Position numbers and translations under genes: made by a program | The notes under the pieces: generated by a model | Databases searched by the model: none | What the model was told of the DNA's origin: nothing | The model's input: only the letters and a program-made list of their open reading frames with translations | From: Clostridia bacterium | GTDB taxonomy: Bacteria; Bacillota; Clostridia; Oscillospirales; Acutalibacteraceae | DNA: 64,000 bases | NCBI GenBank assembly: GCA_017399405.1 | Contig: JAFQCT010000016.1 | Span: forward strand, 62,001-126,000 | Reading direction: 5' to 3' | Shown here: piece after piece, positions 4,198 through 53,561 of the stretch | Layout: every line of letters begins with the position of its first letter | Numbering within the stretch: position 1 is the first letter of the stretch

Positions 4198-6174
4198 TTG
4201 AAAAAATTTAACTGGAAAGTTATTATCCCATATATATTGATTCCCGTAGCGTTTATTACTGTCATCTATATGTATATGGGTAAAGAACAGCAAAAAGATT
4301 TGAAATATTACGAAGTTGTAGAATTCTTCGATAATGGTCAGGTTGCCGAAGTCGATTTGAATATGAACAGCGGTGCAATGACATTCAAACTTGAAGGTGA
4401 AGATAAAACATATAAATATACAGTACCCAATGTAAATCTCTTTATCAACGATGTTCACGAAGGATTAAGAGAATACAATAAGAAAAATCCCGACAAACCT
4501 GTTGAGTTTGATTATAAAGCAGGTAATTCAGGTTCATGGATTTTCAGTATATTACCATCATTGTTGTTGACTATTGGACTTATTGTGCTTATGAGCATTA
4601 TGTTCAAAAAGATGAACAACTCTATAAATACTGAAAATAACCGTGCAATGAATTTCGGTAAAGCAAGAGTAAAACGAGCAGATGACGAAACAAAGAAAGT
4701 AACATTTAAGGATGTTGCAGGTGCAGATGAAGAAAAAGAAGAACTTACAGAACTTGTTGAGTTCCTTAAAGCACCTGAAGAATTTTCAAAACTTGGTGCT
4801 CGTATTCCAAAAGGCGTGCTTCTTGTGGGTCCTCCGGGTACCGGTAAAACACTTCTTGCTCGTGCTGTGGCAGGTGAGGCAAACGCCCCATTCTTCTCAA
4901 TTTCAGGTTCTGATTTTGTAGAAATGTATGTTGGTGTTGGTGCGTCTCGTGTTCGTGACTTGTTCAAAGAAGCAAAAAAGAGCCAACCATCAATTATATT
5001 CATTGACGAAATTGATGCTGTTGGTCGTCACCGTGGTGCCGGTATGGGTGGTGGCCACGATGAGCGTGAACAGACACTTAACCAGTTACTTGTTGAAATG
5101 GATGGTTTCGGTGCAAATGACGGTGTTATTGTGATTGCCGCAACTAACCGTCCTGATATTCTTGACCCTGCACTTCTTCGTCCGGGCCGATTTGACCGTC
5201 AGGTTACAGTAGGTTACCCTGATGTTAAGGGTAGAGAAGAAATTTTACAAGTTCACGCAAAGAATAAACCATTAGCACCTGATGTTGATTTGCATCAAAT
5301 TGCTGCAACAACAGTTGGCTTTACAGGTGCAGACCTTGAAAACCTTCTTAATGAAGCAGCACTTCTTGCAGCAAAACGCAAGAAACTTGCAATTACAATG
5401 GATGAAATCGAAGAAGCAACAATGAAAGTTGTTGTAGGTTCTGAGAAAAAATCACGCAAGATTTCAGAAAAAGATAAGAAAATTACTGCTTATCACGAAG
5501 CAGGTCACGCAATATCATCATATTATCTTGAAAATCAAGACCCTGTTACACACATTTCAATTGTTCCTCGCGGAATGGCTGCAGGCTTTACTCTTTATAC
5601 ACCTGAAAAAGATAATGCTCATATGCTGAAATCCCGTATGCTTGATGATATCGTGTCACTTCTTGGCGGTCGTGTTGCAGAGCAGATTATTTTCAATGAT
5701 ATTTCAACAGGTGCTTCAAACGACATTCAGCGTGCTACTGAAACCGCAAGAAATATGATTACAAAATATGGTATGAGTGAAAAACTTGGACCTATTGCAT
5801 TTGGTTCAGGTAACGACGAAGTGTTCCTCGGTAAAGATTACAACCATATGCGTAACTATTCTGAAAATATTGCCGCTGTAATTGATGAAGAAGTTGAAAC
5901 AATTATTAGAAATGCATATAACAAGGCTGATAAAATCCTTACAGAGCATATCGACCAACTTCATATTGTTTCAGAAGCCCTTATCAAACTTGAAAAGATT
6001 GACAAAGAGCAGTTTGAGTCACTTATGACAACAGGCGAACTTCCAATAGTACCCGAAAAAGACACAAAAGAAGAACTTGCTGAAACAGTAGAACTTGCAG
6101 AAGAAGTAGTTGAAGAAACAGTTGAAATTACTGAAGAAAACAACGAAACTGCTGAAAATGGCGATAATGCGTAA
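4198..6174 (+). CDS. ftsH: ATP-dependent zinc metalloprotease FtsH
   Basis: FtsH is a membrane-anchored AAA+ protease for misfolded membrane proteins and short-lived regulators. Visible in order: a first membrane helix ([17 protein letters not shown]), an extracytoplasmic segment, a second helix, Walker A GPPGTGKT (about 211), Walker B FIDEID, the second region of homology (RPGRFDRQV), and the zinc site HEAGH (His433). The tail is strongly acidic. A GTG at 4186 is in frame but overlaps the AGGAG ribosome site (4182-4186). The TTG at 4198 is therefore the likelier start, giving 658 residues. Confidence 0.96.
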
Positions 6175-6192
6175 AACTGCATAAATTAGAAA

Positions 6193-6224
6193 AGCAACAG
6201 AGTATTTTTTCTGTTGCTTTTTTT
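6193..6224 (+). terminator. Rho-independent terminator after ftsH
   Basis: AGCAACAG (6193-6200) pairs with CTGTTGCT (6211-6218), and the second arm runs into a stretch of seven T. It closes the gdpP-ftsH gene run. Confidence 0.88.
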
Positions 6225-6236
6225 ATTAAATATAGA

Positions 6237-6265
6237 TTGATTTTTTCTATAAAATAGTATAGAAT
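6237..6265 (+). promoter_or_regulatory. Candidate sigma-A promoter of ilvB
   Basis: TTGATT (6237-6242), 17 bases, TAGAAT (6260-6265). It lies between the ftsH terminator and ilvB. The ~60-base leader that follows shows no T-box or attenuator that I can recognise. Confidence 0.45.
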
Positions 6266-6330
6266 ATATATTAATATTTTCACGCATTAAAGCGTTATAA
6301 CAAATTGCAAATACTTGGAGTGAATGAAAG

Positions 6331-8040
6331 ATGAAACTCAACGGTTCAGAAATTTTAACTGAAGTTTTAATTGAGCAGGGGGTTGATACCGTTTTCGGTT
6401 ATCCGGGCGGTGCAGTCCTTAATATTTATGATGCTCTTTATAAATATAGTGACAAGATTAAGCACATTTTATCAGCACACGAACAAGGTGCTTCTCACGC
6501 AGCTGACGGTTATGCGAGAGCAACAGGTAAAACAGGTGTGTGTATCGCAACAAGTGGTCCGGGTGCTACTAACCTTGTTACAGGTATTGCAACAGCATAT
6601 ATGGATAGTGTTCCAATGGTTGTAATCACAGGTAATGTTGGTAAAAGCCTTATTGGTCGTGATGCTTTCCAAGAGGTTTACATTACAGGTATTACTATGC
6701 CTATCACAAAACATAATTATATGGTGCAAGATGTAAATGAACTTGCTGATACAATCCGTGAAGCATTCCGTATTGCAAATTCAGGCAGAAAAGGCCCTGT
6801 TCTTATTGATATTACAAAAGATGTAACTGCCGCAGTAACAGAGTTCGAGAGAAAAGAAAAAATCGAAATTAAAGACGATACAGTTATTAACATTGATGAA
6901 CTTAAAACAGTTGCAGATATTATCAATAAGGCGAAAAAGCCAGTTATAATGTTCGGTGGCGGTGTTGTATCTTCAAATGCATCAGATTTAGCACTTGAAC
7001 TTGTTGGAAAAGCAAATATTCCATCTTGTCATACTCTTATGTCAGCAGGTGTAATTGGCTATAATAATCCGCTTAATCTCGGCCTTTTAGGTATGCACGG
7101 TAGCTACACAACAAATAAAGCGGTTGATGATGCAGATGTGCTTATCGCAATCGGTACTCGTTTTTCTGACCGTGTTGCTCTTGATACAAACAACTTTGCA
7201 AAGAAAGCAACAATTATTCAAATTGATATTGACCTTAGTGAAATCAATAAGAATGTGGCTGTTGACCATTATGTAATCGGTGATGTTAAAACAGTTCTTG
7301 AAAATCTTTTACCGCTTATTAAGAAAAATGACAGAAGTGATTGGCTTAAAGTTATTGATACATACAAAGCAGTTGACTATAAACCACAGGACGATGACTC
7401 ACAGATTTTACCACATCAGTTAATCGGTGCAATTTGCGATATGGCAGGTGAAGACACTGTTGTTGTAACTGATGTTGGTCAGCATCAAATGTGGGCTGCA
7501 CAGTATGTTCACCATGTAAATCCAAGAGGCTTCCTTACAAGCGGTGGTCTTGGTACAATGGGTTATGGTTACGGTGCTGCAATCGGTGCAAAGGCTGCAC
7601 TTGGTGACAGTAAAAAGGTTGTTCACATTACAGGTGACGGTTCATTCCATATGAATCTTAATGAGGCTTGTACTGCAGTAAGCTATGAACTTCCCGTTAT
7701 CACAGTTATTATGAATAACCAAGTTTTAGGTATGGTGCGTCAATGGCAGCGTTGCTTCTATGGTAAGCGTTTTTCACAAACTGACCCACATCGTAAAACA
7801 GATTTCGTAAAACTTGCAGAGGGATTTGGTGCAAAGGGCTATTCTGTTGCAACTATTGCAGAGTTCAAAACTGCATTTGCAGAAGCACTCAAATCAAATG
7901 GTCCTGTTTGGATTGAATGTGCAATCGATAAAGATGAACGCGTATTGCCAATGATTCCTGCTGGCAAAACAGTTAACGACATTATGATGGGCGACTGTAA
8001 AACTTGCCCAAACCAATGCGAAACTAAAAACTTAAAATAA
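6331..8040 (+). CDS. ilvB: Acetolactate synthase, large (catalytic) subunit
   Basis: A thiamine-diphosphate enzyme that condenses pyruvate with pyruvate or 2-oxobutyrate, the first common step to valine, leucine and isoleucine. At 569 residues it is full length. The N-terminal TPP-binding part has the catalytic Glu in SAHEQGASHAADGYARA (Glu51), a central FAD/dehydrogenase-like domain follows, and the C-terminal domain has GDGSFHMNLNE. Start ATG at 6331 follows GGAGTGA. No small regulatory subunit (ilvN) is next to it, so that gene must be elsewhere or absent. Confidence 0.95.
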   Translation: MKLNGSEILTEVLIEQGVDTVFGYPGGAVLNIYDALYKYSDKIKHILSAHEQGASHAADGYARATGKTGVCIATSGPGATNLVTGIATAYMDSVPMVVITGNVGKSLIGRDAFQEVYITGITMPITKHNYMVQDVNELADTIREAFRIANSGRKGPVLIDITKDVTAAVTEFERKEKIEIKDDTVINIDELKTVADIINKAKKPVIMFGGGVVSSNASDLALELVGKANIPSCHTLMSAGVIGYNNPLNLGLLGMHGSYTTNKAVDDADVLIAIGTRFSDRVALDTNNFAKKATIIQIDIDLSEINKNVAVDHYVIGDVKTVLENLLPLIKKNDRSDWLKVIDTYKAVDYKPQDDDSQILPHQLIGAICDMAGEDTVVVTDVGQHQMWAAQYVHHVNPRGFLTSGGLGTMGYGYGAAIGAKAALGDSKKVVHITGDGSFHMNLNEACTAVSYELPVITVIMNNQVLGMVRQWQRCFYGKRFSQTDPHRKTDFVKLAEGFGAKGYSVATIAEFKTAFAEALKSNGPVWIECAIDKDERVLPMIPAGKTVNDIMMGDCKTCPNQCETKNLK

Positions 8041-8052
8041 AACAAAAAATTA

Positions 8053-8078
8053 AGTCCACTCTTTCGAGTGGACTTTTT
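8053..8078. terminator. Bidirectional terminator between ilvB and ilvC
   Basis: AGTCCACTC, loop TTTC, GAGTGGACT, then TTTTC. On the other strand the same hairpin is followed by TTAATTTTTT, so it can serve both converging genes. Confidence 0.88.
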
Positions 8079-8092
8079 CTTTGTGAATTAAA

Positions 8093-9183
<1,091 letters not shown>

Positions 9184-44966: not shown

Positions 44967-46139
44967 ATGAAAGAAATCATACTCATAAAAAACGGTGAGT
45001 TAGCACTTAAAGGACTTAACCGTTCAACATTTGAAGATATTTTAATTAAGAATATTCGCAAAAGAATAAAACCACTTGGCGAATTTGAATACAGAAAAGA
45101 ACAGTCAACTGTCGCAGTTGTCCCTATGGAAGATTATATCGATATGGATGAGGTAAGTGACAGAATAAGCCGAGTTTTCGGTATTGCAGCATATTCCCGT
45201 GCATTACAGGTTGAAAAGGATATGGATGTTATACTCAAAAATGCACCCGAGTATCTTGCAGAACAACTTAAAAATGCAAAAACTTTCAAGGTTGAAGGTA
45301 AGCGTTCAGATAAAAAGTTCCCACTTAAATCTCCTGAAATTTCAGCAGAAGTTGGCGGTGCAATTTTAAGTGCGTTTCCACATTTAAGAGTAGATGTTAA
45401 AAATCCAGAAATACTTGTTACTATTGAAATTCGCGAAAAATTTGCATTTATCCGTGGTAACCAAACTAAAGGTGCGGGCGGTATGCCAACAGGTACAGCG
45501 GGTAAATCTTCAATTCTTATTTCAGGTGGTATTGACAGTCCCGTTGCAGCATATATGATGGCAAAACGCGGTCTTGTGCTTAATGCAATCCATTTTGCAT
45601 CTCCACCATATACTTCACCTCAATCAGAAGAAAAAGTTCACAATCTTCTTCGCCAGGTTTCAAGATATAGCGGTAACATAACTCTCTTCACCGTTGGTTT
45701 TACAGAAATTCAAGAAGAAATTCGTGATAAATGTCCTGAAGATTTGTTTACTCTTATTATGCGTCGTTTTATGATGAGAATTGCACAACGCATAGCAGAA
45801 AAAGAAGAAAGCAAAGCACTTATCACAGGCGAAAGTCTTGGTCAGGTGGCAAGTCAAACATTAAACGCACTTGCATGTACTGACGCGGTCGTATCAATGC
45901 CTGTTTTCAGACCTCTTATCGGTCTTGATAAAGAAGAAATCATTAAGGTTTCAAGAAGAATTGATACTTTTGATATTTCAATTGAGCCTTATGAAGATTG
46001 TTGCACAGTATTTACACCAAAACATCCAAAAACAAAACCACAGATATCTGTACTTGAAAATGCTGAAAAAGCGTTAGATGTTGAGGCTCTTATTAACCGT
46101 GCAATTGAAAACACAACTATTAAAAATATTTGTTTTTAA
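44967..46139 (+). CDS. thiI: tRNA 4-thiouridine synthetase ThiI
   Basis: The 390-residue protein has the N-terminal ferredoxin-like and THUMP domains (about 1-165) and an ATP pyrophosphatase domain with the PP-loop SGGIDSPVAAYMM. It thiolates U8 of tRNA. The protein ends without the rhodanese extension of the E. coli form, as is usual in Firmicutes, and works with the desulfurase just upstream. Confidence 0.96.
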   Translation: MKEIILIKNGELALKGLNRSTFEDILIKNIRKRIKPLGEFEYRKEQSTVAVVPMEDYIDMDEVSDRISRVFGIAAYSRALQVEKDMDVILKNAPEYLAEQLKNAKTFKVEGKRSDKKFPLKSPEISAEVGGAILSAFPHLRVDVKNPEILVTIEIREKFAFIRGNQTKGAGGMPTGTAGKSSILISGGIDSPVAAYMMAKRGLVLNAIHFASPPYTSPQSEEKVHNLLRQVSRYSGNITLFTVGFTEIQEEIRDKCPEDLFTLIMRRFMMRIAQRIAEKEESKALITGESLGQVASQTLNALACTDAVVSMPVFRPLIGLDKEEIIKVSRRIDTFDISIEPYEDCCTVFTPKHPKTKPQISVLENAEKALDVEALINRAIENTTIKNICF

Positions 46140-46151
46140 GGTAGATTTATA

Positions 46152-46631
46152 ATGACTCTGGAAGAAAAAGTTGTTAAAGTACTTAATGAAAAAGGTTTTG
46201 TGTTGGCTACAGCCGAGTCCTGCACAGGTGGTCTTATAGCAAAAAGAATAACAGATGTAAGTGGCTCGTCAGCAGTTTTTAATTGCGGTATAGTTAGTTA
46301 CAGTAATGAAATTAAGGAAAAAGTACTTGGCGTAAGTCATAAAACCCTTGAAACTTACGGTGCAGTAAGTGAACAAACTGTGCGTGAAATGGTGAAAGGT
46401 GCTTTGAAGATTTCGGGTGCTGATATTGCAGTTTCCGTTTCAGGAATTGCAGGACCTAATTCTGATAACACAGAAAAACCTGTGGGACTTATTTTTCTTG
46501 CAGTTTCAAATGGTAAAACTATAACAGTAAAACAACTAAATAATACTTTTACAGAAAATATAAGGGAAAACAACAGACAAAGTGCATCTGACGAAGCACT
46601 TAAAATGATTTTAGATTTGGTAGGTGAGTGA
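46152..46631 (+). CDS. pncC: Nicotinamide-nucleotide amidase (stand-alone CinA C-terminal domain)
   Basis: The 159-residue protein contains LATAESCTGGLIAKRITDV, IVSYSNEIKEKVLGV, and VSVSGIAGPNSDNTEKPVG, the complete signature of CinA-C/PncC, which deamidates NMN. No CinA N-terminal domain is attached. Two genes further on, the SpoIID fusion protein carries a degenerate CinA-like region. Confidence 0.93.
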   Translation: MTLEEKVVKVLNEKGFVLATAESCTGGLIAKRITDVSGSSAVFNCGIVSYSNEIKEKVLGVSHKTLETYGAVSEQTVREMVKGALKISGADIAVSVSGIAGPNSDNTEKPVGLIFLAVSNGKTITVKQLNNTFTENIRENNRQSASDEALKMILDLVGE

Positions 46632-46632
46632 T

Positions 46633-47547
46633 ATGAAAAAAAGAAGAATGGGAGCAGGCAGAATAATCTTACTTATTATCTGTATTCTCGTATTCATCTT
46701 TTCTGCGTCACTTGTCGTAAAACATTTTGTTGAAATCAAAAAAAATCAGGATTACTATGAACAGATACAAGAACTTGTAACTGATGCACCGGAGCAGACT
46801 CCTGACTATGATTCAGTAGTTAAAGTTAATACAGATACAGTTGGTTGGATAAAAGTTCCTAATACAAATATCGATTATCCGGTTGTTCAATACATTAACA
46901 ATGATTATTATCTTAATCACGATTTTGATAAAAAATATAATTATCGCGGTGCAATCTTTATGGATTACCGTAATAATCCCACCGATTTAGATGCAAATAC
47001 AATAATTTATGGTCATAACTGTTACGATAAAACAATGTTTTCAGAACTTGACCAGTACGAAAAATTAGATTTCTATAAAAAAACACCTGTGTTTGAGTTT
47101 AATACTCTTACAAAATGTTATAAATGGAAAATCTATGCAGCCTTTATTACAAATGCTGACCCGGATGAAGATAACGGTTATGTTTTCAATTACATATATC
47201 CGTATATGGATGGTGAAAACTTTAACGGCTTTATTGAAGAGGTAAACAAACGCAGACTTTATGTAACTGATGTTGATATTACTGATGATGATAAAATGCT
47301 AGTTCTTTCAACTTGTGTAAGAACTCTTGACACAGTTAATAAATACGGTAAAACAACATATCGTGCAGATGCCAGACTTGTAATTGTTGCAAGGGCTTTG
47401 CGTGATGGTGAAAGTGCTGAAGTTGATGTTTCAAAGGCTTATGTAAATAAAAATCCAAAGTATCCGCAACTTTGGTACGATAATAAAAACATTGAAAATC
47501 CTTTCAAAGATGAAGAAAAATGGTATCCTCAGGAGGTAGTGAAGTAA
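46633..47547 (+). CDS. Class B sortase, first of two
   Basis: The 304-residue protein has an N-terminal membrane helix (about 11-32) and a class B sortase domain outside. Catalytic residues are His128 (YGHN), Cys228 (LSTC) and Arg248 (DARLVIV); an insertion lies between Cys and Arg. After the core, a tail NPKYPQLWYDNKN...NPF is shared with the next gene. No sorting-signal protein was found in the window. The ATG at 46633 is preferred to the GTG at 46624, which overlaps the AGGTGAG ribosome site. Confidence 0.92.
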   Translation: MKKRRMGAGRIILLIICILVFIFSASLVVKHFVEIKKNQDYYEQIQELVTDAPEQTPDYDSVVKVNTDTVGWIKVPNTNIDYPVVQYINNDYYLNHDFDKKYNYRGAIFMDYRNNPTDLDANTIIYGHNCYDKTMFSELDQYEKLDFYKKTPVFEFNTLTKCYKWKIYAAFITNADPDEDNGYVFNYIYPYMDGENFNGFIEEVNKRRLYVTDVDITDDDKMLVLSTCVRTLDTVNKYGKTTYRADARLVIVARALRDGESAEVDVSKAYVNKNPKYPQLWYDNKNIENPFKDEEKWYPQEVVK

Positions 47548-48878
47548 TGAATAATAGCGAAAACAATAATAACGAAATACTCTCCTTTGAGGAACTTCGT
47601 AAAAAACTTGGTATGGATGAACCGCCAAAAACAGAAACAAAACCAAATAACACAGAAAAAACTGTTGATACTACACCGTCAACTGACGATATTTTTGCTC
47701 AGATTGAGCAGACACTTAACGAAACAACTGAAACAGTAAACGAATCGAAGCACATTGTTGAAAACGGTAAAACTTTTGTTGATATTACAGAACAGTATGT
47801 AAAAAAAGAAACTGTAACTGAACCTGAAATAATAACAGAAGAAAAAGCAGAAACAGTAATAGTGACACCTAAAAAGAAAAAAGTCCGTACTTTTAATGAG
47901 ATTTTCTCTGACTTCTTCAAAGGTTTTATTCCGTTAAAAAAAGACAGTACAAAAGAAAAAATCCGTAAAATTATAATGGATGTTGCAATAATTACAATAA
48001 TTGGTTGCTGTTTTGCTTTTGCTGATTTGTATGTTGAAAGACAAGTGCAGTTGAAACAAAAGGAAGAAATCAAAGAAACAATTGTAGAAACTGACGATTT
48101 TGACGACAATCAATATGTTGAAGCGTGGCAAGATGTTTTTGCAAAATATCCAACAATTCAATTCCCTGAAAATATGAATCTGAAATATTCATATCTTTAT
48201 GCGGTTAATCAAGATTTAGTCGGTTGGGTTAAAATTGATAATACAAATCTTGATGTTCAGGTTGTTCAGTCAAGCGATAATGATTATTATCTTAACCGTG
48301 ATTTCTACGGAAAAACAAGTCGTTACGGTTGCCCTTATCTTGATTTCAAAAATGATTCAAAATATCTTGACGACAATACAGTTATTTATGGTCACCATAT
48401 GACTGACGGTCTTATGTTCTCAAATCTTGATAAATATAAGACTCTTGAAGGCTATAAAGAATCACCTATAATCGAATACAGTACACTATATGAAACATAT
48501 TATTTCAAAGTGTTCGCAGCATTTATTTCAAATGCAAAAGTTGTTGACGATAACGGTAACTTCTTTAACTTTATAGTTACCGATTTTGTAACTGATGAAA
48601 AATTCAGCGGATTCGTTGATGAAGTTGAGAAACGCAGTATTTTCAAAACAGATGTTAATGTTCAGCCGGATGATAAACTCATTACACTTGTTACTTGTTC
48701 TTATGAGTTTGATAGTGCAAGGCTTGTTGTTATGGGCAGACTTCTTCGCGAAAATGAAGATAAATCAGTGCTTGTTGATGAAGCAACACTTAATACATCA
48801 CCTAAATATCCTCAAGCGTGGTATGATGCAAAAAATATGACTAACCCATACGCTGACGATATTTGCTGGACACCATAA
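47547..48878 (+). CDS. Class B sortase, second of two, with long cytoplasmic N-terminus
   Basis: The 443-residue protein starts on the last base of the previous stop (TAATG) behind AGGAGGT. About 140 residues of acidic, Thr/Glu-rich sequence precede a single membrane helix (about 144-163), so they should lie in the cytoplasm. The sortase domain has His283 (YGHH), Cys384 (LVTC) and Arg392 (SARLVV). The tail SPKYPQAWYDAKN...NPY matches the first sortase. A long cytoplasmic head is unusual for class B sortases. Confidence 0.9.
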   Translation: MNNSENNNNEILSFEELRKKLGMDEPPKTETKPNNTEKTVDTTPSTDDIFAQIEQTLNETTETVNESKHIVENGKTFVDITEQYVKKETVTEPEIITEEKAETVIVTPKKKKVRTFNEIFSDFFKGFIPLKKDSTKEKIRKIIMDVAIITIIGCCFAFADLYVERQVQLKQKEEIKETIVETDDFDDNQYVEAWQDVFAKYPTIQFPENMNLKYSYLYAVNQDLVGWVKIDNTNLDVQVVQSSDNDYYLNRDFYGKTSRYGCPYLDFKNDSKYLDDNTVIYGHHMTDGLMFSNLDKYKTLEGYKESPIIEYSTLYETYYFKVFAAFISNAKVVDDNGNFFNFIVTDFVTDEKFSGFVDEVEKRSIFKTDVNVQPDDKLITLVTCSYEFDSARLVVMGRLLRENEDKSVLVDEATLNTSPKYPQAWYDAKNMTNPYADDICWTP

Positions 48879-48927: not shown

Positions 48928-51105
48928 ATGAGAGTAAGATTATTGTCACTTAATGTTGACAAGAGTATGCCTTTTGCAAGATACCAAGCAAGAGTGGTAA
49001 GCAGTATTAAGGCATATTCAGAAGACGCATCTGTTTTTGAAGAGTATGACAATCTTCGTGATTTGTTCACTGCTTTGCAAGATGCGTTAGAAAACGATGA
49101 ACTTATTATTACAGCAGTTGATAATAAGAACTACAACAAACTTAAAAATGCACTTATTCAGGCACTTGAAACTGAAACTGTGTATAATTCATCAATCCTC
49201 AATATGCTTGAAAGTGATGAGGAAATGGACGATGCAACTAGAAAAGCATTTTCAACTTTCCCTGAGCCTGCAACAGTATTCTTGTCAAAAGACGGATTGT
49301 ATTCAGGCTTCGGTATTGAAAACGGTACACAGTATCTTTTAATGCTTCCTATTGATAACGAAAGAATCAATATTATTTTAAGAAACGGTGTTGTTCCGTT
49401 CCTCTCAAAAAGTATTGAAGTTCCTGTTGAAAACGAGTTTCTTAGCGAAAAGAAATTCTTTGATAACGAAAAAGTTGCAATTGCAGTAAGCCGAATTGTT
49501 GAATCAGGCTCAGTAGTTGCAGTTAACGGTACACAAAATGCAGAAGTAATCAAGAGTTGCGGTGATAATATCCCTAATTTTGATGAAGTTTTCGTGTTCA
49601 CCCCTCATGTTGAAGATAAAGGTGATGTGAACGCTACTGAATATGCTGCACAACTTGCTAAAGTAAGTCTCGATTTATCTGCTGCAAATATTGGTGCTTC
49701 AATTAGTGATATTTACACATCAAATGATGCAAGATTTATCTGTATTGCAGTTGCTAATGACGAATCAGCAGTTGTAAGAAAACTTTATATGTCAGAAGAT
49801 GAAACAGAATCAGCATTTATTGAAGCTGCTGCTGTTGAACTTATTGAACTTATCGGTGAAAAAGCAGCAGGCGTGCAAAGCGTAGGCATTGAAATTACAG
49901 AAGATAATAACAAAATTACAGATGAAGATAAAAAGCCTGTAAATAAGAAATCAATTATCATTATTTCTGCTGTTTTAGGTGCAATTGTACTTCTTTGTGC
50001 AATCCTTGGTATCGTCTATAAAGTTCAGGGTGAAAATGGTGCACTTGCAAACGCTTTCAATAAGATTTTTAATATTACTACAACAACTACAACCACAACA
50101 ACTACAACAGAAACAACTACTGAACTTACTACTGAGGCCCCTGCCGCAGAAATGAAAATTTCTGATTTTATGATAGCAGACTTAATTAAGATTGAAATGC
50201 TTAAGAATACAGAAGAAACAACAGAAAGCACTACTGAAAGCACAACGGGTGCAGATGAGTCATCAACTGACGGTACAACAGAGCCTGAAACTCAGGTTGA
50301 TAAAGGTGCACCAACCGTTATGAAAATCAATGGTGTAGAAATTGAGGCAAAAGAAGCACTTGGCAGACTCGTTATGACTGAAATGGGCGAAGGTTATAAC
50401 ATTGAGGCAGTTAAAGCACAAGCAGTTGTAATTTATACATATCTTAAATACCGCGATACAAATTTTGAAATCGACGGTGTAAAAATTAGTGATACAGTTA
50501 ATGATGAAGTAAAATCAGCAGTTGATGCTGTGTTCGGTGAATATCTTACTTACGATGGTGAGGTAGCACTTACACCTTACTTTGAAATCGCAGCAAAGAA
50601 AACAACTGATGCTAAAACCATTTTCTCAAAAGAATATCCATATCTTAAACCTGTTTCAATTAACGGTGACCCTGATTCTTCATCAGAGGCATTCAAGGTT
50701 GAGCGTAAGTATTCAATGGGTGAGTTCAAAGGATTACTTCTTAACTTTGACAGTACACTTAAACTCAGCGAAGAACCTATTATGTGGGTTGATGTAAAAG
50801 CACACGACGCATCAGTTTCTTCAAGTATTGGTTATGTAACAAAGGTAACAGTGGGCGATAAAGAAATAAGCGGTATTGATTTCCGTACAAAAGTATTTAC
50901 ACAGTCAACACTTCTTTCACATTGTTTCACAGTTGATTATAACGAAACAACAGGCGAATTCCTTGTTACATCATACGGTAACGGTTTGGGCGTAGGTATG
51001 AGTAAAACAGGTGCTGATTATATGGCAAATAATAAATCAAGCTATAAGAAAATTCTTTCAACATATTTCAGTGGCACTAAACTTACACAGGAGGAAAAGG
51101 TATGA
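48928..51105 (+). CDS. Membrane protein: CinA-like region, TM helix, Thr-rich linker, SpoIID domain
   Basis: The 725-residue protein has four parts. Residues ~1-330 lack a signal peptide and resemble degenerate Cin[21 protein letters not shown] and [11 protein letters not shown] (131-141) fit the molybdopterin-binding-like half, while [10 protein letters not shown] (~253-262) and [13 protein letters not shown] fit the PncC half, without ESCTGG. A membrane helix spans ~341-366. A Thr run at ~383-400 follows. The end (~464-725) is a SpoIID domain with catalytic-type Glu485 in [15 protein letters not shown] and [17 protein letters not shown]. SpoIID-type domains cut glycan strands. The CinA comparison was made by eye. 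Confidence 0.8.
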
Positions 51106-52121: not shown

Positions 52122-52156
52122 AAAATATTAAAATACTAAAGTAAAGGGTGGTTCAA

Positions 52157-52726
52157 GTGAAAAAAGGCTTACTAGTAGGAATAGGTGCAGTTGTTCTTGT
52201 TGTTATTCTTGTAATTGGTGGTTTAGTCGGCACATACAACGGACTTGTTGATAAACAAGCAGAAGTTGAAAAAGCTGACGCTCAGATTCAAACTTATTTA
52301 CAACGCCGTGCAGATTTAATTCCAAATCTGGTAAATACAGTTAAGGGTTATGCTTCTCACGAAACTGAAGTTTATACGGCTCTTGCAGATGCCCGTGCAA
52401 AACTTAATTCAGCATCAAATGCAGAAGAATATACCGAAGCACTTGAAAGCTATGATTCTGCAATTTCACGACTCTTGGTAGTTGTTGAAAATTACCCTGA
52501 ACTTAAAGCGAATCAAAATTTCATTTATCTTCAGGATGAATTGACAGGAACAGAAAATAGAATTGGTACTGCACGAAAAGATTATAATGATGCAGTTACA
52601 GAGTATAATAAGTCAATCAAAAAATTCCCTACAGTAATTTTTGCAGGAATATTAGGCTTTGATGAGGCGGAACTTTTTGAGGCAAGTGATAATGCACAAA
52701 ACGTTCCTATTGTTGATTTTGAGTAA
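52157..52726 (+). CDS. LemA family protein
   Basis: The 189-residue protein has an N-terminal membrane helix and the LemA core: YNGLVDKQAEVEKADAQIQTYLQRRADLIPNLVNTVKGYASHE. LemA proteins are found with TPM-domain proteins, as here, but their molecular role is not settled. The start is GTG at 52157, 8 bases after AAAGGG; GTG at 52148 overlaps that site. Confidence 0.93.
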   Translation: MKKGLLVGIGAVVLVVILVIGGLVGTYNGLVDKQAEVEKADAQIQTYLQRRADLIPNLVNTVKGYASHETEVYTALADARAKLNSASNAEEYTEALESYDSAISRLLVVVENYPELKANQNFIYLQDELTGTENRIGTARKDYNDAVTEYNKSIKKFPTVIFAGILGFDEAELFEASDNAQNVPIVDFE

Positions 52727-52733
52727 AGAAGAT

Positions 52734-53561
52734 ATGAAAAAGTATAATAAAATTTTAACTGTTACTTTAATATTGTTAATTCTATTGTCATTTTCATCAA
52801 TGGCAATAGATTTACCAAAACCCACAAATAATTTCTTTGTAAACGATTTTGCAGATGTTATTGATGATAATGTAGAAAATGAACTTCAGTCTATTGGTGC
52901 AAGTTTATATAAACAAACAACCGCACAAGTAGTTGTTGTTACGGTAGACTCCCTTGATGGATATGATGTAGAGGAATATGCCCTTGAATTAGGTCGAGAG
53001 TGGGAAGTAGGCAGTAAAGAAAGTAACAACGGTGTAGTTTTGCTTTTATCTGTAAATGAACGTCAGGTGACAATTCAGGTTGGTTATGGCCTTGAAGGGT
53101 GTCTTCCAGATGGTAAAACAGGTAGAATTCTTGATACATACGCAATTCCATATTTAAGGGATGACGACTTTTCTTCAGGCCTTGCAAGTGCTTATAAAGC
53201 TATTGCTAATGTTATATGTGTTGAATATGGCATTGAACTAGAGAACCTGAACTTTGAAGATTATAATAACGATTATAATTTTGAAATGTCTAATGATGAA
53301 ATAGTTATAATCTTTATTGCGATATTTATGGTAATTGCAATATTTTCTTTTATAGTATTCAAATGTAACGGTGGTGGCTCAAATCACGGTGGCGGAACAC
53401 ACTATGGTGGCGGTCGTTATTATGGCGGAACTACCTATCGTGGCGGTTTCGGTTCAGGCAGTGGAGGATTCCATAGTGGTGGCGGATTCCGTGGTGGCGG
53501 AGGAGGCTTCCGCGGAGGTGGAGGTTCATTTGGTGGCGGAGGCTCGTCACGAGGATTCTAA
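52734..53561 (+). CDS. TPM-domain (YgcG-like) membrane protein with Gly-rich tail
   Basis: The 275-residue protein has a signal peptide, a TPM domain (FVNDFADVIDDNVENEL ... QVVVVTVDSLDGYDVEEYALELGREW ... IQVGYGLEGCLPD), a membrane helix near 200-220, and a Gly/Ser/Arg-rich tail ending GGGSSRGF. TPM proteins pair with LemA in many bacteria, and roles in membrane stress or protein quality control have been proposed. The start at 52734 matches the signal peptide; the open frame upstream overlaps lemA. Confidence 0.9.
   Translation: MKKYNKILTVTLILLILLSFSSMAIDLPKPTNNFFVNDFADVIDDNVENELQSIGASLYKQTTAQVVVVTVDSLDGYDVEEYALELGREWEVGSKESNNGVVLLLSVNERQVTIQVGYGLEGCLPDGKTGRILDTYAIPYLRDDDFSSGLASAYKAIANVICVEYGIELENLNFEDYNNDYNFEMSNDEIVIIFIAIFMVIAIFSFIVFKCNGGGSNHGGGTHYGGGRYYGGTTYRGGFGSGSGGFHSGGGFRGGGGGFRGGGGSFGGGGSSRGF

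Follow-up and report, generated by a model that had tools for sequence, protein, structure and literature searches.

A degenerate CinA joined across the membrane to a SpoIID domain, and its place in a putative CinA, class B sortase and SpoIID module of gut clostridia

The evidence gathered here supports the presence, in the window (the whole stretch of 64,000 nucleotides of a Clostridia bacterium genome that was analysed), of a fusion protein in which a degenerate CinA, made up of a MoCF-like half followed by a PncC half, is joined via a membrane helix to a SpoIID domain. On the basis of the anatomy, homology, loss of catalytic motifs, constraint, gene order and fusions established below, we tentatively assign this open reading frame to a hitherto undescribed membrane module of gut clostridia composed of CinA, class B sortase and SpoIID, in which the degenerate CinA half (hereafter pseudo-CinA) may be a scaffold that places or regulates the outer SpoIID domain, a reading that we hold to be plausible and somewhat short of probable. 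The curated models scanned (Pfam and NCBIfam) would label the protein "SpoIID/LytB domain-containing" and nothing more. SpoIID cuts glycans during engulfment, and CinA acts on pyridine nucleotides. It is still an open question how cells direct wall hydrolases from within and keep them in check, and to our knowledge few inside-out links to such enzymes have been described. The link reported here is encoded in single genes and is repeated across a family, as a direct fusion in some lineages and through a dead paralogue in others.

The frame (48928..51105, + strand; 725 aa, ATG start) opens with a degenerate CinA MoCF (COG1058) domain at residues 1-163 (48928..49416, +), which is followed by a degenerate PncC domain at residues 175-318 (49450..49881, +). 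A single membrane helix, a hydrophobic stretch preceded by NKK (residues 342-364; 49951..50019, +), occupies a similar position in family homologues, and the Lys residues that precede it indicate, by the positive-inside rule, an N-in/C-out orientation. The only hydrophobic stretch found in the protein lies at about 338-366 and the N-terminus has none, in agreement with the original prediction, which had seen no signal peptide there. Beyond the helix come an extracellular linker recognized from its Thr/Glu-rich sequence (50026..50292, +) and a SpoIID domain in canonical order (residues 459-723; 50302..51096, +), identified by TIGR02669 and Pfam SpoIID, in which E485 (50380..50382, +) is the equivalent of the catalytic E101 of C. 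difficile SpoIID; the helix, Thr-rich linker and SpoIID domain with a catalytic-type Glu had been described correctly in that prediction. The 3' end of the frame runs into the beginning of the next gene, which encodes an NAD-dependent epimerase and which we take to be galE. Past the epimerase gene, at 52148-53561, stand a LemA gene and then a gene for a membrane protein that has a TPM domain and a Gly-rich tail (Pfam).

The descent of the N-terminal half from CinA is not evident from curated models. A Pfam scan of the fusion frame gave no CinA match, the NCBIfam CinA models match it weakly (E 0.012-0.017, 14-15 bits vs cut-offs of 293 and 379), and the pseudo-CinA is not covered above cut-off by any model of either library, so that the CinA call of the original prediction went beyond routine annotation. 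In a small set of ORFs from the loci fetched for comparison, blastp against a genuine CinA returned an E value of 4.6e-6, and tblastn across the whole genome holding that CinA returned 8e-5. An hhalign comparison of 36 aligned pseudo-CinA sequences with 10 genuine CinAs scored 103. Among the controls, no score from 30 column shuffles exceeded 24, the reversed alignment gave 17 and an unrelated SpoIID alignment 15. The pseudo-PncC half by itself reached a probability of no more than 59.6. When the 36-row alignment was used as a profile to search PDB sequences, no CinA was retrieved, the top rows being importins at E 0.07.

The AlphaFold model of residues 1-341 matches CinA structures across both halves, and the MoCF (COG1058) and PncC folds are present in CinA order, so that the outcome named beforehand as refuting the CinA assignment, a predicted structure of about residues 1-335 devoid of these folds, did not materialize. 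Foldseek TM-scores against whole CinA chains are low (0.30-0.38, rmsd 15-17), which we attribute to a different placement of the halves together with the absence of the KH domain, and the model, with a pTM of 0.55, does not fix the arrangement of the two halves. The KH-like middle domain, located at about residues 170-255 in CinA, was skipped by hhalign, and in the model about 12 low-confidence residues alone link the halves at its position. The structure and profile tests rule out an unrelated N-terminal domain; of the "degenerate, apparently full-length CinA" originally proposed, the degenerate MoCF-like and PncC halves in order are thus borne out, whereas full length is ruled out by the absence of the KH domain.

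The reported absence of the catalytic GGLGPT and ESCTGG motifs extends well beyond the window. GGLG and ESCTG occur in 0/36 sequences of the genus alignment (A3, the window included) and in 0/36 proteins of a second genus set that overlaps it, and GGLG and SCTGG occur in none of the 21 aligned family pseudo-CinAs from outside the genus. In the window itself, the GGLGPT site of the pseudo-MoCF reads AVDNKN and the ESCTGG site of the pseudo-PncC reads VNGTQN. According to the excerpted text of PMC5384747, A. tumefaciens CinA needs Ser31, Lys63, Tyr58 and Arg145, Ala mutants being inactive; in the profile alignment of pseudo-PncC, another residue replaces the catalytic Ser, and the segment with the Tyr and Lys lies in a gap. 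The KH domain, which contributes to the ADP-ribose site of CinA (PMC4246079, in excerpt), is lost from pseudo-CinA as well. A search pattern for the Tyr/Lys pair proved too strict, matching 1/19 lone PncCs.

Upstream of the fusion gene, the window carries thiI, a conserved neighbour (44967..46139, +; Pfam ThiI E 1.1e-71), pncC, encoding an NMN deamidase that stands alone and retains ESCTGG and SYSNEIK (46152..46631, +; Pfam CinA E 1.9e-53), class B sortase 1 (46624..47547, +; TIGR03064 174.5 bits, above cut-off) and class B sortase 2, which has a cytosolic N-terminal extension (47520..48878, +; TIGR03064 165.6 bits, above cut-off). The fusion gene starts 49 bases past the end of the second sortase gene, so pncC, placed two genes upstream in the original prediction, is in fact the third, with the two sortase genes intervening. 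Within the genus, the N-terminal half was matched in its own genome and in 35/36 of the other genomes searched, the match in G005 being partial at a contig end and the one genome lacking it (G004) being 75% complete. The named relatives are mostly MAGs, many of them titled with gut or rumen sources, and two are called "Candidatus Fimenecus". The fusion gene lies on the contig and strand of pncC, 2.7-4.5 kb downstream, in 30/36 genomes, and in the other six the two are on different contigs.

PncC sits in short, lone ORFs in the genus genomes with a match, and lone PncC is frequent within the wider family too; in other families, 21 genomes had a match, with PncC in ORFs of at least 416 aa in 18 and in short ones in three. 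No CinA-type MoCF domain was found in the genus genomes searched. Five of them have three MoCF matches each above the Pfam cut-off, in ORFs that lack a PncC match and whose sizes would be typical of molybdenum-cofactor genes, and two genomes show one sub-threshold match.

Across the family, the pseudo-CinA profile matched 83/150 genomes, a count that includes genuine CinA. Forty-two loci were fetched, comprising L107, from another family and chosen for its SpoIID ORF, and 41 family loci, which were selected on pseudo-CinA or on long CinA ORFs and without regard to sortase. A pseudo-CinA ORF is present in 31 of them, four of the assignments being weak (L119, L131, L134 and L138; HMM E 2e-6 to 0.009), and a sortase ORF or domain precedes it in 31/31. 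Genuine CinA/PncC accompanies it in 26/31 and ThiI in 24/31, several of the other loci being cut by contig or fetched-stretch ends, and wherever the genes are present they invariably run thiI, CinA/PncC, class B sortase(s), pseudo-CinA. The pseudo-CinA itself may be bare with a membrane helix, may carry the linker only or may carry SpoIID, which makes SpoIID an add-on and the sortase link the constant. Bare forms with nothing outside to anchor are found in several genera (L112-L114, L125-L127), and in L128 and L144 a bare pseudo-CinA stands beside a separate SpoIID protein. Locus L116 holds tandem pseudo-CinA genes (4353-5975 and 6083-8236, +), one linker-only and one with a permuted SpoIID.

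The same partners are also fused to one another in a range of combinations. Genuine CinA is joined through a membrane helix to a class B sortase (CinA-TM-SrtB) in L069, L108, L115, L119, L129, L136, L138, L142 and L158, and PncC is joined likewise in L068, L070 and L141. CinA-TM-SrtB-SpoIID proteins are encoded in L120 and, with a divergent MoCF half, in L137 (1209 aa; CinA/PncC, Sortase and SpoIID above the Pfam cut-offs, MoCF not found). Degenerate counterparts are pseudo-TM-SrtB in L134 and L138 and pseudo-TM-SrtB-SpoIID in L129, where SpoIID exceeds the NCBIfam cut-off and the sortase match, at E 2.6e-38, yet falls below its own; SrtB-SpoIID occurs in L115 and L161, each truncated where the fetched stretch ends. 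CinA/PncC-TM-SrtB extends to four other families of the order (L069:1837-4074, -; L070:2116-3924, +; L068:3702-6425, +; L158:2172-4844, +). A sortase is carried by 12/13 PncC ORFs of at least 560 aa in the fetched family loci, the exception being an 877-aa CinA in L143 (2370-5000, -), which has a membrane helix and whose long C-terminal part matches neither sortase nor any other Pfam family. In L138 and L129, a genuine CinA-TM-SrtB is followed by a degenerate copy, and these two loci look like intermediates in a tandem duplication followed by decay of one CinA.

Of 150 family genomes, 38 have a strong pseudo-CinA as a separate protein and 37 a PncC frame of at least 660 aa; the two sets, listed by hand, share no genome, where 9.4 would be expected if descent is disregarded. 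It is as if tethering CinA directly to the sortase could replace a separate pseudo-CinA. A CinA-SrtB fusion and a weak pseudo-CinA do occur together in L119, L129 and L138 (the last, from genome G409, found on fetching only), which weakens any strict exclusivity, and shared ancestry may explain much of the pattern.

The original prediction had envisaged a pseudo-enzyme sensor or scaffold inside the cell that may control a wall-cutting domain outside, and the family-wide comparison makes the scaffold part of that proposal more likely. In such a scheme, a second CinA copy beside a sortase gene, perhaps arising by duplication, would have lost the KH domain and catalytic residues and gained a membrane helix, and some lineages would have added an extracellular SpoIID glycan-cutting domain. 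The pseudo-CinA would keep CinA-type dimer contacts and pair with itself or with the genuine PncC/CinA from the same locus, gathering class B sortases and SpoIID at one place under the membrane, so that glycan cutting could occur where sortase anchors proteins. The constant sortase link, the recurrent fusion of the same three partners, the existence of bare pseudo-CinA-TM proteins and the near-exclusivity with direct CinA-SrtB fusion all argue for a scaffold, as do two precedents of enzyme folds acting as membrane-side envelope organisers (Glp/GlpR, PMC10522489; SteAB-RipA, PMC12977500; both in excerpt). However, adjacent genes fuse easily, and the recurrent fusion of neighbours is therefore weaker evidence than the fusion of distant genes would be; the exclusivity is not absolute and may reflect descent; and several pseudo-CinA proteins have no SpoIID, so that control of SpoIID cannot be the founding function.

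Both precedents are likenesses by analogy. SteAB-RipA of Mycobacteriales likewise links a cytosolic enzyme-like dimer across the membrane to a wall hydrolase, but it consists of several proteins with a thiamine-pyrophosphokinase-like pocket and an endopeptidase, whereas a single chain with a CinA fold and a SpoIID-type domain is found here (PMC12977500, in excerpt). The gephyrin-like Glp/GlpR scaffold of Corynebacteriales is of MoeA type with a separate receptor, in contrast to the CinA-derived and fused protein of the window (excerpt of PMC10522489). Relative to CinA/PncC (COG1058 + KH + COG1546; T. thermophilus 4cta/4ct8 and A. tumefaciens 2a9s), the MoCF-like and PncC folds and their order are alike, but the pseudo-CinA lacks the KH domain and both catalytic motifs, is membrane-anchored and bears an extra outer domain. 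The excerpted text of PMC3855486 notes occasional fusions of CinA domains to other domains, which that study left out; among the literature matches listed, neither a CinA-sortase or CinA-SpoIID fusion nor such a module is described.

The pseudo-CinA fusion would be a variant of inside-out wall control, and something more if the three-part module acts as one machine. We regard it as possible, with more reserve than for the scaffold itself, that gut clostridia have a dedicated envelope machine of the NAD-recycling enzyme CinA (live or dead), SrtB and a SpoIID-type glycan cutter, variously fused and with the cutter circularly permuted in some proteins, through which the cytosol controls where the wall opens for sortase attachment. 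The recruitment of a housekeeping pyridine-nucleotide enzyme beside a sortase and a glycan cutter hints at an undescribed form of wall control from inside, and suggests PncC/CinA, SrtB and SpoIID as candidate partners.

In the genus, the missing PncC Tyr/Lys segment is replaced by a motif at residues 224-233 (49597..49626, +), of which F, P, E, D and G are kept in all sequences covering the site, while T is invariant in 36/36 rows of A3 and is Ala in G034 and G027. This replacement would be expected if the pseudo-CinA were a ligand sensor whose remodelled pocket took up a small molecule, such as a pyridine nucleotide or ADP-ribose, and which then switched the outer SpoIID via the helix; the pseudo-PncC being the most constrained part in comparison with L071 points the same way, as does SteA, which forms a dimer in the cytosol, has a conserved pocket of nucleotide type and, together with SteB, positions a wall hydrolase (PMC12977500, in excerpt). 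We nevertheless consider a sensor unlikely. The motif is not retained in the 21 aligned family pseudo-CinAs from outside the genus, which rules it out as a family-wide site, and its confinement to the genus makes a single conserved ligand unlikely. Moreover, the Ser31, Tyr58 and Lys63 required in PncC (PMC5384747, in excerpt) fall in changed segments or gaps in the profile alignment, and a single helix with a long flexible Thr-rich linker would probably transmit signals poorly.

The pseudo-CinA fusion is under purifying selection. Against L071, the nearest named relative of the window, dN/dS is 0.15 for the pseudo-MoCF, 0.036 for the pseudo-PncC, 0.12 for the membrane helix and linker and 0.072 for SpoIID, with 0.10 for the genuine PncC compared between the same two genomes; against L073, where dS is already 1.4-2.4, the corresponding values are 0.08, 0.09, 0.20 and 0.19. 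Three more distant pairs were left out of dN/dS use, as most of their parts are saturated. With ratios well below 1 and no internal stop in any genus match, a decaying pseudogene is ruled out. Across the 36 pseudo-CinA sequences, 34 columns are invariant, down to 35% identity. Such conservation, like the low dN/dS of both halves, is hard to reconcile with a dead CinA that is a mere folded plug and tether, a by-product of neighbour fusion with no partner or ligand, and the bare pseudo-CinA-TM proteins, in which a mere tether makes no sense, count against it further. Although neighbouring genes do fuse in many combinations and the extent of degeneration differs greatly from genus to genus, as would be anticipated for a passive anchor, we judge this explanation improbable.

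The same low credence attaches to a role in sporulation, in which the fusion would be a second engulfment SpoIID that partners SpoIIP and whose cytosolic half couples wall cutting to the pyridine-nucleotide state of the mother cell. The genus does possess Spo0A (38/40 genomes), SpoIIP (39/40) and another SpoIID match besides the fusion (in pieces in G014). In the genome from which the window comes, the fusion gene is followed about 14 kb downstream by spoIIP (in L162, a 3-kb stretch just beyond the window end); in several relatives the distance is roughly 14-17 kb. However, that canonical SpoIID is already present besides the fusion, and the pseudo-CinA is tied to sortase genes in the fetched loci. 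A re-tooled enzyme, in which the pseudo-CinA half would catalyse a new reaction and SpoIID would work on its own outside, is very improbable, as the strongly conserved polar loop (His/Glu/Asp/Lys) at the old active-site segment that would suggest it is limited to the genus and no family-wide conserved polar cluster was seen in the 21-sequence alignment.

Returning to the outer domain that the putative scaffold carries, TIGR02669 matches it with an E value of 3.1e-28, above cut-off, and Pfam SpoIID with 27.7 bits against a cut-off of 23, while the engulfment SpoIID equivalog model TIGR02870 gives 119.8 bits and does not reach its cut-off of 234.75. E485 aligns with E101 of C. difficile SpoIID in a phmmer stretch that scores about 10 bits by itself, and its position holds Glu in 33/35 aligned genus sequences and Asp in the other two. 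The domain differs from the SpoIID lytic transglycosylase (5i1t, 4rwr) and from SpoIID/LytB in being borne by a pseudo-CinA, membrane helix and linker and in having mostly lost the His of the GHGVGM motif, which is kept in 4/35 genus sequences.

In 13 family proteins, 11 of them fused and two free-standing (L109, L110, L111, L116, L118, L123, L124, L128, L130, L144, L146, L147 and L148), the SpoIID domain is circularly permuted, the last ~48 profile positions, which include the GHGVGMSQ segment, coming first and the remainder after. Curated Pfam and NCBIfam models confirm the permuted order in L144 and L111. Of the 36 genus copies checked, 35 show the canonical order, the other being cut by a contig end. 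In a tree of the shared SpoIID segment (39 sequences, 212 columns), the genus nests within the permuted group with a UFBoot of 90, the node uniting all the permuted sequences with those of the genus having a UFBoot of 17; this placement leaves both a reversion to canonical order and two separate permutations possible. The permuted family amounts to a natural protein-engineering experiment. A dockerin on a wall-cutting domain is unusual, and one of the free-standing permuted SpoIID proteins (L144:558-1904, -), encoded beside a bare pseudo-CinA-TM gene, carries a type I dockerin (Pfam E 3.4e-10).
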